Positions 19,715-27,336 of a DNA stretch of 64,000 nt are shown here, in pieces. This DNA comes from Parasphingorhabdus marina DSM 22363 (GTDB lineage Bacteria > Pseudomonadota > Alphaproteobacteria > Sphingomonadales > Sphingomonadaceae). Under the pieces are notes generated by a model that searched no databases, was not told the DNA's origin, and saw nothing but the letters and a program-made list of their open reading frames with translations. Both the position numbers and the translations under genes were made by a program. Within the stretch, counting starts at the first letter, position 1. Each line of letters opens with the position of its first letter. The DNA is taken from the NCBI RefSeq assembly GCF_900128895.1, contig NZ_FSQW01000002.1, positions 1,364,001 to 1,428,000 of the forward strand. The letters run 5' to 3'.

Positions 19715-21259
19715 ATGCGTCTGATTTTTCTGTTCAGCCTGTTGCTTGTCCTGACCGGGTGCGGTGGCGCCGCTGACGAAACTGTTTTGCCGGGTCCGGA
19801 TCAAATCGTCCGGTTGTCGGATTCCGAAATCAAGGGTCTCGATCCGCAAGGGGTGTCTGATCTGTCCTCGCTCAGGGTTCTGGCTGACCAGTATGAAGGC
19901 CTGACCAGACTGGATGCCCGCGGTGAGGCAGAGCCCGGTCTCGCAAAGAAATGGACGGTATCCGCAGACGGTTTGCGGTGGATTTTCGAATTACGGCCGG
20001 ACCTGGAATTTTCTGACGCCACGCCGATCAACGCGCACCTGTTTCCCGATGTCCTGGCCAGGTTGCGAGCGGAGGAAACGGCCGCACCAACACGGACGCT
20101 CTTTGACAATATCTCCACAATTGTGGCGCTCGACGCACAGATGGTGGAGATCCGCCTCAAATCGCCGTCGCCGGCCCTGCCGGTGCTGCTTGCCCATCCG
20201 GCATTGTCCGCCATACCGCTGCACCGAATCAGGGAAGCGGGAAACAGATGGACCGCCGATCGCCCTGTGGTGACCAGCGGACCCTATCGGCTCACTCATT
20301 GGCTTCTCAACAATCATGCGCGCCTGGAACGCAATCCGAACTGGCATGATGACACGAAGATCACCGGGAATATCATCTGGAAACCCATGGATGACAGTCT
20401 TGCGGGGATGCGGCTGATACTGGCCGGAGGGGCGGACATCGCCTCTGACTATCCGGTCAGTCGCCACCAGTGGCTCGAAGACAATCATCCCGGTCTGGCC
20501 CACAGCACGCCCTATCTTGGCAGCTACTATTTTGTGTTCAATACCCGCAAGCCGCCATTTGATGATGCGCGGGTTCGAACCGCCCTGTCGATGGCCATCG
20601 AGAGACAATGGATTGCCGACAAGGTCATGGCGATCGGCAACAGTCCCTCCTGGAGCGTCTTGCCGCCGGGATTGAACGGCGGGTCAGCATACCGCCCTGT
20701 CTGGGCCACGTGGCCGCGGGAACGGCGACTGCGTGAAGCTGAAGGGATCCTGCGGGAAGCGGGATATGATGCCGACAATCCGCTCACATTTGAAATACGT
20801 TTCAACAGCTCCGCTGAACATCGTCGGGTATCGGTGGCACTGGCCGCCATGTGGCAACCGCTGCCAGTCCGTACGACCCTGTTCAACAGCGAGGCGGCCT
20901 TGCATTTTTCGGCCTTGCGCCAGCATGATTTCGCCCTCGCCCGTTCCGGCTGGATCGCAGACATTCCGGTTCCGGAAAACTTTCTCATGGTGCACCAGCC
21001 CGCCAACGGACCGGGCAATTATTCGGGATACAGCAACCCGGCTTATGACAGGCTCGTCAACGATGCCCGGCAAAGTGCAGATGCCGGGAAACGTGCGGCT
21101 CTGTTCGCACAGGCCAACCAGTTGCTGACCCGGGACATGCCAATCCTTCCGCTCTACTTTTATGTGACGCGCTCGCTGGTCGCATCGCGGATTGACGGCT
21201 GGGACGATAATATTTCCAATGTTCACCCCAGCCGCACATTGCGTATAAGGACGCCATGA
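19715..21259 (+). CDS. Family 5 solute-binding lipoprotein (peptide/nickel type)
   Basis: This 514-residue extracytoplasmic binding protein resembles OppA/DppA. Its signal ends in the lipobox LTGC, so it would be lipidated at Cys16; the next residue is Gly, which fits outer-membrane sorting rather than Asp-mediated retention. The family pattern is clear: LVYEGLTRLD-like QYEGLTRLD near residue 60, LAKKWTVSADGLRWIFELRPDLEFSDATPI, SGPYRLTHW, and ARVRTALSMAIERQWI. No ABC permease or ATPase gene is adjacent. It overlaps the next, related gene by four bases. Ligand unknown. Confidence 0.85.
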   Translation: MRLIFLFSLLLVLTGCGGAADETVLPGPDQIVRLSDSEIKGLDPQGVSDLSSLRVLADQYEGLTRLDARGEAEPGLAKKWTVSADGLRWIFELRPDLEFSDATPINAHLFPDVLARLRAEETAAPTRTLFDNISTIVALDAQMVEIRLKSPSPALPVLLAHPALSAIPLHRIREAGNRWTADRPVVTSGPYRLTHWLLNNHARLERNPNWHDDTKITGNIIWKPMDDSLAGMRLILAGGADIASDYPVSRHQWLEDNHPGLAHSTPYLGSYYFVFNTRKPPFDDARVRTALSMAIERQWIADKVMAIGNSPSWSVLPPGLNGGSAYRPVWATWPRERRLREAEGILREAGYDADNPLTFEIRFNSSAEHRRVSVALAAMWQPLPVRTTLFNSEAALHFSALRQHDFALARSGWIADIPVPENFLMVHQPANGPGNYSGYSNPAYDRLVNDARQSADAGKRAALFAQANQLLTRDMPILPLYFYVTRSLVASRIDGWDDNISNVHPSRTLRIRTP

Positions 21260-22761
21260 CAAACCGGAACTCATCCCGTCTGGCCTCTTTCATCGCGCCA
21301 GTGATCGCTGGTCTGTTGCTGGCATCATGCAGTTCGTCAGGCGATGAAGACCGGGCCCGTGTTACAGTGATTTCCGAAAGTGGCGGGAAGGTCAATCCGA
21401 TCGGGATTAATCTGAATCACGTCTCCGCAACAGCCCGGATGGCCGTGGCCAAAGGTCTGATCGGGCTGGACGAACAGGGCCGGATTGTGCCCTCCATCGC
21501 GGCACGCTGGATTGTGACCGACGACGGCCTGAGCTACATTTTCCGCCTGAACGAGGCCAGATGGAACGACGGCCGCCAGATCACGGCCGAACGAATCGCC
21601 ACTTTACTGAGAGAGCGTATCGCAGAGCTGGCCGGCAGCCGGCTGGGACGTGACCTAAGGGTCATCGATGAAATCGTCTCCATGACCGGCCGCGTGATCG
21701 AAATACGCCTCGACTCTCCGCAGCCCAATTTCCTCCAGCTGCTGGCCCAACCTGAACTGGGCCTGTTCCGTGCAGGCCATGGCGCGGGCCCGATGGTGGA
21801 AATCTCGACGGAGCCGACGCTCGTTCTTGGTCCTTTGCTGCAACCGGATGAGGAGGCTGACGACGAGGAGACCGATGAGAGCTCTGTGGAGGATGATCCA
21901 CGGCGGGTGTTTCTGCGCGGCGAAAGCGCGGCGCTCGCCATCGCCCGGTTCGATGCCGGTCATATCGATGTCGTGCTCAACGGAAAGTTTCATCATCTGC
22001 CGCTGATCGATGCGTCGGGAATCGATACCGGCAATTTGCGCCTGGATCCGGTGGCCGGACTGTTCGGGCTGCGTTTTGTGCGCGCGGATGGTTTCTGGGC
22101 GATACCCGACAATCGCGAAATACTCTCGATGGCGATCGACCGACCGGCATTGCTGACCTCCTTCCCCAATGTAACCGCATGGAAAAGCCGGCAGAAGATC
22201 ATTCCCGAAGCACTGGATGTTGAAGGCATCAACACCCGGCCGGACTGGGCGACCATGACCATGCAGGATCGTATCGAATTCGCCCGTACCATGGTAGCCA
22301 GGTGGAAGGCCTCTGACGGGTATATTCCGCCCCTCGTTATCGGCCTGCCCGATGAAGCCGGGGCGGACATTTTGTTCCTGCGTGTCCAGTCGGATTTGCG
22401 GAGGATCGGACTGGATGCAAAAAAAGTGGGGATTGACCGCGTGGCAGATGTGCGCCTGATTGACGAAATCGCGCCTTATGACAGCCCGCAATGGTTTCTG
22501 ACCCAGCTCACCTGCGATCTGACCGCTGTCTGCCTCAACGATGCCGATGCCAGGATCGCGGATGCCGATGCCGCCACCAATCTGGAGATCAAGGCCCGCC
22601 TCTATGCCGAAGCCGAACAGATGCTGGTCAATCATTACAACTATATTCCGCTCGGCACCCCCGTTCGCTGGTCGATCGCAAGGCCGGATCAGCGCGGGTT
22701 TGCGGTCAATCCCCGCGGGTGGCATCCATTGAATTCGCTGGTCGGCATACCTATATCATAG
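21256..22761 (+). CDS. Second family 5 solute-binding lipoprotein
   Basis: This 501-residue protein is related in layout to the preceding gene product. The lipobox LASC gives a lipidated Cys25 followed by Ser, again suggesting outer-membrane localisation. The binding-protein pattern is present: IAARWIVTDDGLSYIFRLNEARWNDGRQI near 80-110, and a later NREILSMAIDRPALL. A strongly acidic insertion lies at about residues 198-214 (QPDEEADDEETDESSVED), unusual for the family and probably a surface loop. Its ATG overlaps the stop of the upstream gene, so the two are co-translated. No transporter partner is present in the window. Confidence 0.8.
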   Translation: MTNRNSSRLASFIAPVIAGLLLASCSSSGDEDRARVTVISESGGKVNPIGINLNHVSATARMAVAKGLIGLDEQGRIVPSIAARWIVTDDGLSYIFRLNEARWNDGRQITAERIATLLRERIAELAGSRLGRDLRVIDEIVSMTGRVIEIRLDSPQPNFLQLLAQPELGLFRAGHGAGPMVEISTEPTLVLGPLLQPDEEADDEETDESSVEDDPRRVFLRGESAALAIARFDAGHIDVVLNGKFHHLPLIDASGIDTGNLRLDPVAGLFGLRFVRADGFWAIPDNREILSMAIDRPALLTSFPNVTAWKSRQKIIPEALDVEGINTRPDWATMTMQDRIEFARTMVARWKASDGYIPPLVIGLPDEAGADILFLRVQSDLRRIGLDAKKVGIDRVADVRLIDEIAPYDSPQWFLTQLTCDLTAVCLNDADARIADADAATNLEIKARLYAEAEQMLVNHYNYIPLGTPVRWSIARPDQRGFAVNPRGWHPLNSLVGIPIS

Positions 22762-22765
22762 GTGT

Positions 22766-23251
22766 ATGACTAATATAGCACAGGGAGGACCGAAATTGGC
22801 CATCTCCGAAGAGCAGTTAAAGCGTCTCGCGGAACAATTGCCGGATGTAAGCCGCGACCCGCAGGCGGTCCGGCAGCGTGTCGAGGCCATGGAAAAGGTT
22901 CTGGAACGGGTTTTCGTGATTCCCGGGATAAATCGCCCTGTCGGGCTTGATTCCCTCGTTGGCCTCATTCCCGTTGTCGGGGATATCGCAACGGCCCTGA
23001 TGGGCGCCTATATCGTCTGGGAGGCCCGTAATCTGGGCATGTCCAAATGGCAATTGTCACGGATGGCGGCCAATGTCGGCATCGACACCGCGCTGGGTGC
23101 CGTCCCGCTCGCCGGTGACCTGTTCGACTTCTTGTGGCGGTCCAACACCCGCAATCTGAAGATCATTCGCAAGCATCTCGACAAGCACCACCCGGGTACC
23201 CGTACCATCGATAACGACCCGGCTCTTTTCGGGACGGACAAGCGCACCTGA
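22766..23251 (+). CDS. DUF4112 domain protein
   Basis: This 161-residue protein has the DUF4112 pattern: a helical start, then IPGINRPVGLDSLVGLIPVVGDIATALMGAYIVWEA (about 52-90). A second hydrophobic stretch follows around NVGIDTALGAVPLAGDLFDFLWRSN. Two to three membrane helices are likely. Function of the family is unknown. It begins four bases after the second lipoprotein gene, so the three genes probably form one transcript. Confidence 0.85.
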   Translation: MTNIAQGGPKLAISEEQLKRLAEQLPDVSRDPQAVRQRVEAMEKVLERVFVIPGINRPVGLDSLVGLIPVVGDIATALMGAYIVWEARNLGMSKWQLSRMAANVGIDTALGAVPLAGDLFDFLWRSNTRNLKIIRKHLDKHHPGTRTIDNDPALFGTDKRT

Positions 23252-23268: not shown

Positions 23269-23973
23269 TCAGGCGCCCCGCCAGATCTTGATTGCCGTGT
23301 CGTCTTTGGCCCGCCGCATCCGGGCCGGGCAGCGGGTGGGCCGAAAATTCTCTGCAAGACACAGGCGCACTTCCTGCAACCAGCCCCGCCGATTGATTTT
23401 CAGCCGGATCATCTCGCTGGTGAGTCCGTCATTGGCCGCGGCAAAGGCCGTGCGAAAGGCTCCCGCCGTCAGCGGTTTGCGTGACAGTCGGTCCATGTCC
23501 GGAAACCGGACCGCGCCGAACATGATCCGCGAAATCCGGAAATAGGTTTCAGGCCGCCGGGCCATGCAGCTGCCATGCTTGGCCCATTGCCGCGCCATCA
23601 GCCGCGTATCCGGCATCATGCAGAAATTCCGCCGTGTCGCAGCGGGAGACAGGAGACGGGTCGCCCGGCACCATTGCGGATAGGTGGCACCCTGCGCGTC
23701 CGGCCAGAGACCGTGCAGGATGAACCCGAAACTGCCGTCATCACCGCTGCACTGGGTCTTGTGGCGGGAACTGTCCTTGCGGGTCCGGCAGAATTCCGGC
23801 GACCAGCTCAGCGCCAGCGTATAGCCGGATACCGGCAGTGGGCGCCGCGGTTCGCTGGCGGGTTTGGATACTGGTGATGCGGGCTGCAGGACCGAGGGTG
23901 CGCGGCATTGGTAGGCCTGGGCGTGGGCCAGTGATGGAACCACAAGCATGAGATGCAAACTGAAAATTCTCAT
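23269..23973 (-). CDS. Ribonuclease T2 family protein
   Basis: This 234-residue protein has a probable signal peptide (cut after about residue 18, SLAHA) and both conserved active-site boxes of RNase T2: FILHGLWP with His87, and QWAKHGSC with His133. Cysteines at about 62, 75, 102, 118 and 136 suit disulphides. It should be a periplasmic, broad-specificity endoribonuclease like E. coli RNase I. A Pro/Ser-rich linker (residues 26-48) precedes the domain. Its start overlaps the stop of the membrane-protein gene upstream by four bases. Confidence 0.9.
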   Translation of the reverse strand: MRIFSLHLMLVVPSLAHAQAYQCRAPSVLQPASPVSKPASEPRRPLPVSGYTLALSWSPEFCRTRKDSSRHKTQCSGDDGSFGFILHGLWPDAQGATYPQWCRATRLLSPAATRRNFCMMPDTRLMARQWAKHGSCMARRPETYFRISRIMFGAVRFPDMDRLSRKPLTAGAFRTAFAAANDGLTSEMIRLKINRRGWLQEVRLCLAENFRPTRCPARMRRAKDDTAIKIWRGA

Positions 23974-24419
23974 TCAAACACATCCGACAATTGGTCGCCA
24001 TTCTGGATCACGGCACCTTTTGACCGAAACCAGATCTGGGAAGGTTTCAAAAACAGGCAAATCGCTGCACCAAATGACAAAATATTGGCAACGGCGCTAA
24101 CAACAAGATCAGGCCCGGTCATTTGGAGAAAAATACCTCCCAGCATTTCCGATCCAAGGCCTTTTGCCGCCATTGCGAGCAGAAAAAACCCCAGTCCCAA
24201 AAACGCAAGAACGGAATATATCCATTTGAACACATTGCTGGCGCGACGCGCTATGAGATCCCAAAGCAGGAACAGTAATCCAAAAAAGACCGCATTGATC
24301 AAAACAATCTCAAACAATGAGCCTTCTGTATCAAGATCGGTTGCAAAACTCACAAATGCCGAAATCCAGAACAGCCGCTCAAACCAGATGATCGATGTTG
24401 GACGGGCAGGTTTCATCAC
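23970..24419 (-). CDS. Hypothetical four-helix membrane protein
   Basis: This 149-residue protein has about four hydrophobic segments (residues 12-28, 36-56, 66-88, 100-122) and no family I recognise. The N-terminus starts MMKPARPTSIIWFERLFWIS. It is the upstream partner of the RNase T2 gene, with a four-base overlap, and begins 15 bases after nadC on the same strand, so all three may be co-transcribed. No function is proposed. Confidence 0.6.
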   Translation of the reverse strand: MMKPARPTSIIWFERLFWISAFVSFATDLDTEGSLFEIVLINAVFFGLLFLLWDLIARRASNVFKWIYSVLAFLGLGFFLLAMAAKGLGSEMLGGIFLQMTGPDLVVSAVANILSFGAAICLFLKPSQIWFRSKGAVIQNGDQLSDVFE

Positions 24420-24434
24420 TAACCGCGTCTGATA

Positions 24435-25283
24435 TCACACTTGTTCAAAGTCGAGGCCGATATCTGCCGCTGGTGCCGATTGTGTCAATCGGCCGACCGA
24501 GATGAAATCTACTCCGGTTTCCGCCTTGTCCCGGATGGTTTCCAGGCTGATCCCGCCGCTGGCCTCGGTCGCTGCGCGGTCTCCGATCAGCGTTACCGCC
24601 CCGCGCAAGGTCGCCGGGTCCATATTGTCGAGCAGCAAATGGGTGCCGCCAGCGGCCAGTGCGGGTTCGATCTGGTCGACGCGGTCCACCTCGACAATGA
24701 TCGTTTCGATCTTTGCGTCCACTGCCCGTCGTACCGCCTCGCCGATATCGCCGGCGACGGCAACATGATTGTCCTTGATCATCGCGGCATCCCACAGGCC
24801 CATGCGGTGGTTCTGCGCCCCGCCCATCCGCGTCGCATATTTTTCCAGCACGCGAAGCCCGGGAATGGTTTTGCGCGTGTCGAGCAAAGTGCAACCCGTC
24901 CCCGCAATCTTGCGGACATATTCGTCGGTCATGCTGGCGATACCGGTGAGATGCTGCACCGTGTTGAGTGCGCTGCGCTCGGCCGTCAGCATCGCGCGTC
25001 CTCTGCCCTTCAATCGCATGATATCGGCGCCTGATGCGACAGTCGCTCCCTCTTCGGCCAGAATTTCGATCTCGACTGCCGGGTCCAGCGCACGGAAAAA
25101 AGCCTCCGCAATGGGCAATCCAGCAATCACCGCTTCGTGGCGGCTGTCCATGACACCGGTGAAGATGGCATCGGCTGGAATCACCGCCTCGGATGTGACA
25201 TCCCGTCCTGTTGGGCCGAGATCTTCCGCCAGAGTGGATTGCACAAAGGCATCAAGGTCGAAGCGGTCAAGCGAGAATGTCAT
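24435..25283 (-). CDS. nadC: Nicotinate-nucleotide pyrophosphorylase (carboxylating)
   Basis: This 282-residue enzyme converts quinolinate and PRPP to nicotinate mononucleotide with loss of CO2, in de novo NAD synthesis. Typical segments are EDLGPTGRDVTSEAVIP (about 16-32), the PRPP/quinolinate site TVQHLTGIAS, DTRKTIPGLRVLEKYA and MGAQNHR-type MGGAQNHRMGL, then IKDNHV. ATG 25283 is chosen over a TTG two codons upstream. nadA lies 1 kb upstream on the same strand, separated by a CPBP protease gene. Confidence 0.95.
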   Translation of the reverse strand: MTFSLDRFDLDAFVQSTLAEDLGPTGRDVTSEAVIPADAIFTGVMDSRHEAVIAGLPIAEAFFRALDPAVEIEILAEEGATVASGADIMRLKGRGRAMLTAERSALNTVQHLTGIASMTDEYVRKIAGTGCTLLDTRKTIPGLRVLEKYATRMGGAQNHRMGLWDAAMIKDNHVAVAGDIGEAVRRAVDAKIETIIVEVDRVDQIEPALAAGGTHLLLDNMDPATLRGAVTLIGDRAATEASGGISLETIRDKAETGVDFISVGRLTQSAPAADIGLDFEQV

Positions 25284-25361
25284 CGTCAATATCTAGCGCC
25301 AACCAAGTCATTTAGAAAGCGGCTATTCTCGGCAGAGCTGATGCAGGAACATGGCGGTTGA

Positions 25362-26228
25362 TCACTTGCCGCCTTCCTGCCGAAGGAAGGCTCGGTGATA
25401 GGCCAGAACGAGAATGCCCGTTACGGCCAGAGCAACAATGCCAGATAGTCCTGCTTCCGGTCCGTAAGCGCCACCGGTCCAATAGTCCGGCCCGGCCTGT
25501 TCCGCAGATAACAACGATGAGGCGGATTCATTGCCGCTCATGGAAAATCCGAAAATTTTGCTTTGCGAAAAATTCCAGGCTGCGTGCAATCCAATCGACA
25601 TTCCTAACCGTCCTGTGAGAATGACCGGCAGACACCAGATTGCCCCGTTCAAAGCCAGTATGAAAAAAGCGGCCCACGAGAAATTGTCAGTCGCACCATG
25701 CACCGAGGCGAAAATTACGGAAGTGAGTAGCACCGACATCGCCAAACCAGGTCTGGCTCCCAGCTTCATTCCAAACCATTCGCGAAAACTGGTCAGGAGG
25801 AACCCTCGGAAGATCAGTTCTTCCCAATAGGCGACAAGCAACATTCTGAACAGAAACATCCAGAAAGCGCCATCGACGGCGGCGGAACTGATCATAATTG
25901 CACCCGGCACGCTCCAGGGCACGGACACAGCAAAAATTAATCCGATCACCAAAACGCCGAAAACCATTCCCACAAAAAACTCAATACCGAAAAATAGGTC
26001 GCGACTTAGCCCGTAGTCGCTCAATGTTTTTTGCTCGATTCTGGCAGCCCAGAATCCCAGAAACACCGTCAGGAGAATGACCGCCAGCATGAGCTGCAAC
26101 CATTGCGGTGAAACCAGAAAGAGCGGGCTCAAGATGGCAAACAGCGAAAATGCAAATATGGGCAGGCGCCAGAGAAGGCGAAGTCTTCCTGAACTGTCAG
26201 TGAAAACACTCACCACAGGCTCCAGCAT
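25362..26228 (-). CDS. CPBP family intramembrane metalloprotease
   Basis: This 288-residue multi-pass membrane protein has the three CPBP (CAAX protease/Abi) motifs. They are EELIFRG (catalytic Glu pair, about residue 136), FASVHG (about 174) and HAAWNF (about 216). Seven or eight hydrophobic segments are visible. Bacterial members are thought to be intramembrane proteases, but substrates are mostly unknown. It sits between nadA and nadC on the same strand, with 93 and 78 bases on its sides. Confidence 0.88.
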   Translation of the reverse strand: MLEPVVSVFTDSSGRLRLLWRLPIFAFSLFAILSPLFLVSPQWLQLMLAVILLTVFLGFWAARIEQKTLSDYGLSRDLFFGIEFFVGMVFGVLVIGLIFAVSVPWSVPGAIMISSAAVDGAFWMFLFRMLLVAYWEELIFRGFLLTSFREWFGMKLGARPGLAMSVLLTSVIFASVHGATDNFSWAAFFILALNGAIWCLPVILTGRLGMSIGLHAAWNFSQSKIFGFSMSGNESASSLLSAEQAGPDYWTGGAYGPEAGLSGIVALAVTGILVLAYHRAFLRQEGGK

Positions 26229-26322
26229 GGATATAACTCCCTCGACATCACCGAGAGATCATTGCACCAGTTGCCTGGCGAAAGCGGCATTTTGCAGACA
26301 GTTGTCAGGTTTGGCCAGATGC

Positions 26323-27336
26323 CTAGCCCTCATGCGCCAGGTCGGTCGGTCCCAGGTCGCCCTGCCCCACCGTCGCGCTGGCCATTTCCAGCATGCGGTC
26401 GAGCGACTTTTTCGCCTGCAGCCGCAGCTCTTCGTCCATCTCGATCCGCGGTTCGAGATCGCGCAGCGCAACGTAGAGTTTTTCCATCGTGTTGAGCGCC
26501 ATATAGGGGCAGATATTGCAGTTGCAGTTGCCGTCCGCGCCGGGAGCACCGATGAAATTTTTCTCGGGCACCGCCTTTTCCATCTGGTGGATGATATGCG
26601 GTTCGGTCGCGATAATGATCGTGTCGCCGTCAAATTCCTTGGCATATTTCAGGATCGCGCTGGTCGAACCGACCATGTCCGCATGATCAACAATATAGGC
26701 CGGACATTCGGGATGTGCGGCAACCGGAGCGTCGGGGTGCTGCTGCTTCAGCTTGAGCAGCTCGGTCTCGCTGAACGCTTCATGGACAATACACACACCG
26801 GGCCAGAGCAGCATGTCGCGGCCGGTCTGGCGGGCGATATAGCCGCCGAGATGCTTGTCCGGGCCGAAAATGACCTTCTGGTCGAGCGGAATCTGTTTCA
26901 GGATATGTTCCGCCGACGAGCTGGTGACGATGATATCGCTCAGCGCTTTCACCTCGGCCGAACAGTTGATGTAGGTCAGCGCGATATGGTCCGGATGCTC
27001 TTCGCGGAACGCCTTGAACTTGTCCGGAGGACAGGAGTCCTCGAGGCTGCAACCCGCGTCCAGATCAGGCAGCACGACAATCTTCTCCGGCGACAGGATC
27101 TTTGCCGTCTCCGCCATGAACTTCACGCCGCAAAAGGCAATGACGTCGGCATCGGTTTCCGCCGCCTTGCGGGACAGTTCCAGACTGTCACCGACAAAAT
27201 CCGCAATATCCTGGATTTCGGGTTTCTGGTAATAATGGGCGAGGATGATCGCATTGCGCTCCTTGCGCAGCCGGTTGATTTCCTCGATCACGTCCACCCC
27301 GGCCAGAGAGCCGCCAATTCCACCACGTGCGTCCAT
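26323..27336 (-). CDS. nadA: Quinolinate synthase
   Basis: This 337-residue [4Fe-4S] enzyme condenses iminoaspartate with dihydroxyacetone phosphate to quinolinate. It has the three-fold repeated architecture with AIILAHYYQKPEIQDIADFVGDS near residue 30, AGCSLEDSCP near 95, and conserved cluster cysteines including that in NCNICPYMALNT near 275. The start has AAGGA ten bases upstream. The aspartate oxidase gene nadB is not in the window. With nadC it supplies de novo NAD. Confidence 0.95.
   Translation of the reverse strand: MDARGGIGGSLAGVDVIEEINRLRKERNAIILAHYYQKPEIQDIADFVGDSLELSRKAAETDADVIAFCGVKFMAETAKILSPEKIVVLPDLDAGCSLEDSCPPDKFKAFREEHPDHIALTYINCSAEVKALSDIIVTSSSAEHILKQIPLDQKVIFGPDKHLGGYIARQTGRDMLLWPGVCIVHEAFSETELLKLKQQHPDAPVAAHPECPAYIVDHADMVGSTSAILKYAKEFDGDTIIIATEPHIIHQMEKAVPEKNFIGAPGADGNCNCNICPYMALNTMEKLYVALRDLEPRIEMDEELRLQAKKSLDRMLEMASATVGQGDLGPTDLAHEG

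Follow-up and report, generated by a model that had tools for sequence, protein, structure and literature searches.

Two tandem lipoprotein genes, described in an earlier note as an orphan pair of outer-membrane binding proteins, separate into two distinct cases: what appears to be an ordinary receptor whose importer is split, and a widely conserved SBP-fold lipoprotein that would have outlasted its permease. The explanation that we judge best, and likely to be right, combines a split Opp importer, with P0001 as its OppA, and an old OppA paralog (P0002, hereafter SBP2) that is tied to a DUF4112 membrane protein. Only SBP2, and not P0001, is a real puzzle.

In the window, the whole 64-kb stretch of DNA analysed here, the open reading frames give two lipoprotein genes of the SBP_bac_5 family with a DUF4112 gene 3' of them (Table 1), and this arrangement, as the earlier note had described it, is real: the Pfam matches bear it out, and the first two frames share 4 bp (ATGA). 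Each of the two proteins begins with a signal peptide and a lipobox (LTG^CGG in P0001, LAS^CSS in SBP2), and Pfam SBP_bac_5 matches P0001 over its full length (1.1e-65) and SBP2 over residues 77-170 only (7.2e-14). The third product matches DUF4112 (PF13430) at 8e-34 and, like that family, has two hydrophobic segments; reading from its TTG start yields the N-terminus conserved in relatives (MAISEEQL...), with AGGGAGGA upstream, and we rejected the ATG at 22766 as the start because it adds ten residues that relatives do not conserve. The OppA-SBP2-DUF4112 run is likely one transcription unit; a scan for promoters and terminators gave nothing usable, and literature searches found no study of the locus. 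The host genome measures 3.55 Mb in two contigs, and its close relatives are Parasphingorhabdus and Sphingorhabdus of the Sphingomonadaceae.

Table 1. Coordinates of the locus and of the Opp permease genes; locations without a prefix are positions in the window
Feature	Location	Strand	Description
OppA (P0001)	19715..21259	+	predicted lipoprotein peptide-binding protein, 514 aa; lipobox LTGC, +2 Gly, D416
SBP2 (P0002)	21256..22761	+	divergent OppA paralog, lipoprotein, 501 aa; lipobox LASC, +2 Ser, docking Asp lost
DUF4112 protein	22796..23251	+	two hydrophobic segments; TTG start at 22796 conserved in relatives
oppB-oppC-oppDF cassette	G000:C2:1211104-1214365		complete, SBP-less, on the other contig (whole-genome search); oppB 306 aa, oppC 266 aa, fused oppD-oppF 515 aa
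Fused OppD-OppF	L003:10319-11866		515 aa

Whole-genome searches showed that P0001 and SBP2 are the sole SBP_bac_5 genes of the genome and that all BPD_transp_1 matches lie outside the window. The statement that no permease is near thus holds locally but fails for the genome as a whole, where the other contig carries an oppB-oppC-oppDF cassette whose genes overlap head to tail and which no binding-protein gene adjoins. P0001 is most similar to OppA (2.5e-90 against the NCBIfam model, 2e-89 against the Salmonella protein), its score of 303.7 against an equivalog cut-off of 947 marking it as an OppA homolog rather than the enterobacterial equivalog, and its D416 aligns with Asp419 of S. enterica OppA, the residue at which the N-terminus of a bound peptide docks (PMC5736914). 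As judged from its full-length match, its retained docking residue and the presence of cognate OppB, OppC and OppD-F genes, P0001 is very probably OppA, the receptor of a split but otherwise ordinary oligopeptide ABC importer, and the matching cassette rules it out as an orphan. It differs from the known OppABCDF system in that its gene lies apart from the permease cassette here and in most relatives, in that it is a lipoprotein, and in that the two ATPases are fused and show no oligo_HPY match, a domain for which the entire host genome gave none. Single full-length matches to the fused OppD-OppF also occur in three other genomes (G037, G053 and G103).

The distribution of these genes was followed in 120 family genomes, each at least 95% complete, with ortholog cuts of >400 bits for P0001, >330 bits for OppB and >150 bits for SBP2, the cuts and the transfer of handles being made by hand. 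Genomes with a P0001 ortholog and genomes with an OppB ortholog form identical sets of 29 each, a count that comes from related genomes and not from independent events. All 29 have OppA beside SBP2, and just 3 have oppA and oppB linked, so the family as a rule keeps receptor and permease genes apart. Uninterrupted oppA-SBP2-oppB-oppC-oppDF operons are found in G103, G107 and G091, and an oppA-oppB-oppC-oppDF operon in G037, which belongs to a different family within the order. A linked permease operon in relatives, the very result that the earlier note had named as refuting its proposal, is therefore found (L108, L225, L226, L227).

SBP2 behaves differently. All 120 genomes contain a match to it, in a few of them only a weak match to other family-5 proteins, and 101 contain a clear ortholog; 68 of these 101 have no OppB match. 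One such genome (G033, 100% complete) encodes just three BPD permeases, namely PstA, PstC and one that carries, as a fusion, a betaine-binding domain of its own, which leaves no importer for SBP2; another importer serving it in Opp-less species was thus considered and found no candidate in this one complete genome checked. A cognate permease does not, then, accompany SBP2 wherever it occurs; to judge by gene content, SBP2 is truly orphaned in most members of the family, and its role is likely not import. What the earlier note had said of both proteins, that they are orphans and may do something other than classical import, accordingly survives for SBP2 and falls for P0001. OppA relatives encoded away from a permease are known from E. 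coli (MppA) and Treponema pallidum, the latter protein having no discernible cognate transporter (PMC5736914). SBP2 resembles both in this respect; it differs in being family-wide and paired with DUF4112, and SBP2 itself lacks the docking Asp.

Despite its partial Pfam match, SBP2 is predicted to adopt the SBP cluster fold: an AlphaFold model drawing on 58 relatives (pLDDT 89.5, superseding one of pLDDT 69 from a shallow alignment) superposes on OppA (6dtf_A) with Z 31.7 and rmsd 4.2 over 447 aligned residues. The peptide-docking Asp, kept in P0001 and 12 other OppA rows of the alignment, gives way to P, A, R, H, T, Q, N or G in every one of the 29 rows on the SBP2 side, those from operons among them, although the loss of one Asp leaves room for SBP2 to bind N-terminally blocked peptides or other ligands. 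Three OppA-side rows also lack it (G081, which adjoins an Opp cassette, G041 and G047). The G041 protein (L115), from another family of the order, is OppA-like with Thr at this column in a genome without an OppB match, and is possibly another permease-less SBP. In the tree the OppA rows form one group (support 100/99) and all SBP2 rows fall outside it, both the operon-borne copies of G103, G107 and G091 and the single, non-operon ones; from this tree, whose root is not set by the data, we infer that the oppA-SBP2-oppB-oppC-oppDF operon is ancestral. SBP2 is under purifying selection, with dN/dS of about 0.03-0.15 whether or not oppA lies next door.

Its most constant neighbour is the DUF4112 gene, which adjoins SBP2 on the 3' side in 78 of 80 named loci, whereas oppA lies 5' in only 30; SBP2 therefore belongs with DUF4112, and OppA with OppBC-DF. 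The linkage of SBP2 and DUF4112 could in part reflect conserved synteny. On the 3' side of DUF4112, at 23269-27336 of the window, lie genes for ribonuclease T2 and for what we take from sequence to be nadC and nadA, found beside SBP2-DUF4112 in 46, 46 and 40 of the 80 loci, respectively. In freshwater Sphingorhabdus loci, about 22 of the 80 and among them L165:4252-7913, the place that oppA has in Parasphingorhabdus is taken by genes for a PBP1-type transglycosylase/transpeptidase and a trypsin-like protease, both with the orientation of the SBP2 gene that follows them, which hints at a cell-wall context. The literature searched contained neither a function for a bacterial chromosomal DUF4112 member nor a description of DUF4112 paired with an SBP-fold lipoprotein.

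The earlier proposal, that both lipoproteins are sorted to the outer membrane and capture ligand there without a permease, drew on the Gly and Ser at +2 of their lipoboxes, and it gains something from the genus-wide SBP2 rows, in which +2 is Gly in 24, Ser in 18 and Thr in 2 of 44 and never Asp. Among 30 congeneric OppA orthologs, however, a tally by eye gives Gly 10, Asp 7, Ser 3, Thr 3, Ala 3, Asn 2 and Glu 2, and the OppAs of intact operons themselves carry Gly at this position (CGPS in G107, CGGH in G091, CGGP in G037). Alpha-proteobacteria are without LolB and the +2 rule is merely a guide (PMC4623201), Asp at +2 is rarer outside enterics, and the Pseudomonas inner-membrane lipoprotein MexA has Gly there (PMC6469965). 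With the residue variable among relatives and the rule unreliable outside enterics, localisation is not readable from these sequences and we set aside the outer-membrane prediction made from +2. As OppA, moreover, comes and goes with OppB, an outer-membrane pair working without a permease is improbable.

A stronger competitor has OppA and SBP2 as alternative receptors of a single OppBC-DF, peptides entering through OppA and another ligand through SBP2. Such sharing is documented, for instance for MppA with OppBCDF in E. coli (PMC5736914), and would fit the invariable adjacency of the two genes in Opp-positive genomes, the position of SBP2 between oppA and oppB in three of them and the SBP fold that the model predicts for SBP2. 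Yet SBP2 is kept in the 68 genomes without an OppB match, and G033 offers it no plausible importer, so a shared permease could at most be its role in Opp-positive species; we consider this reading rather unlikely. That SBP2 is instead a decaying duplicate, kept by chance beside housekeeping genes, might be suspected from its divergence and partial Pfam match, but the low dN/dS leads us to reject decay, and matches in every family genome together with a confidently modelled full fold make it hardly credible.

Under the favoured explanation, a split importer plus an old paralog tied to DUF4112, D416 of P0001 would dock the peptide N-terminus and P0001 would presumably hand the peptide to OppB-OppC, encoded far off on the other contig and powered by the fused OppD-OppF ATPase. 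SBP2 would be an OppA paralog of long standing, whose gene in some relatives has kept its place as the second receptor gene in the five-gene operon; having lost the docking Asp and gained a close gene partnership with DUF4112, it would have taken a role free of the Opp permease and presumably binds something other than free peptides. Most likely it would be a lipoprotein that binds ligand on the periplasmic side and, in concert with the two-helix DUF4112 protein, serves as a sensor or accessory instead of an import receptor, where both the SBP2-DUF4112 interaction and the membrane holding the lipid anchors are presumed. For Opp-less species, we give about even chances to SBP2 being such a lipoprotein that acts with DUF4112 and is not an import receptor. 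Somewhat more tentatively, SBP2-DUF4112 may be an envelope module present almost throughout the Sphingomonadaceae: an OppA paralog would have persisted after its transporter was lost and turned into a ligand-binding sensor or accessory lipoprotein that acts through a two-helix membrane protein. A conserved SBP that is under selection, has no transporter and keeps DUF4112 as a fixed partner would offer a way into the function of DUF4112 and into the repurposing of import receptors.
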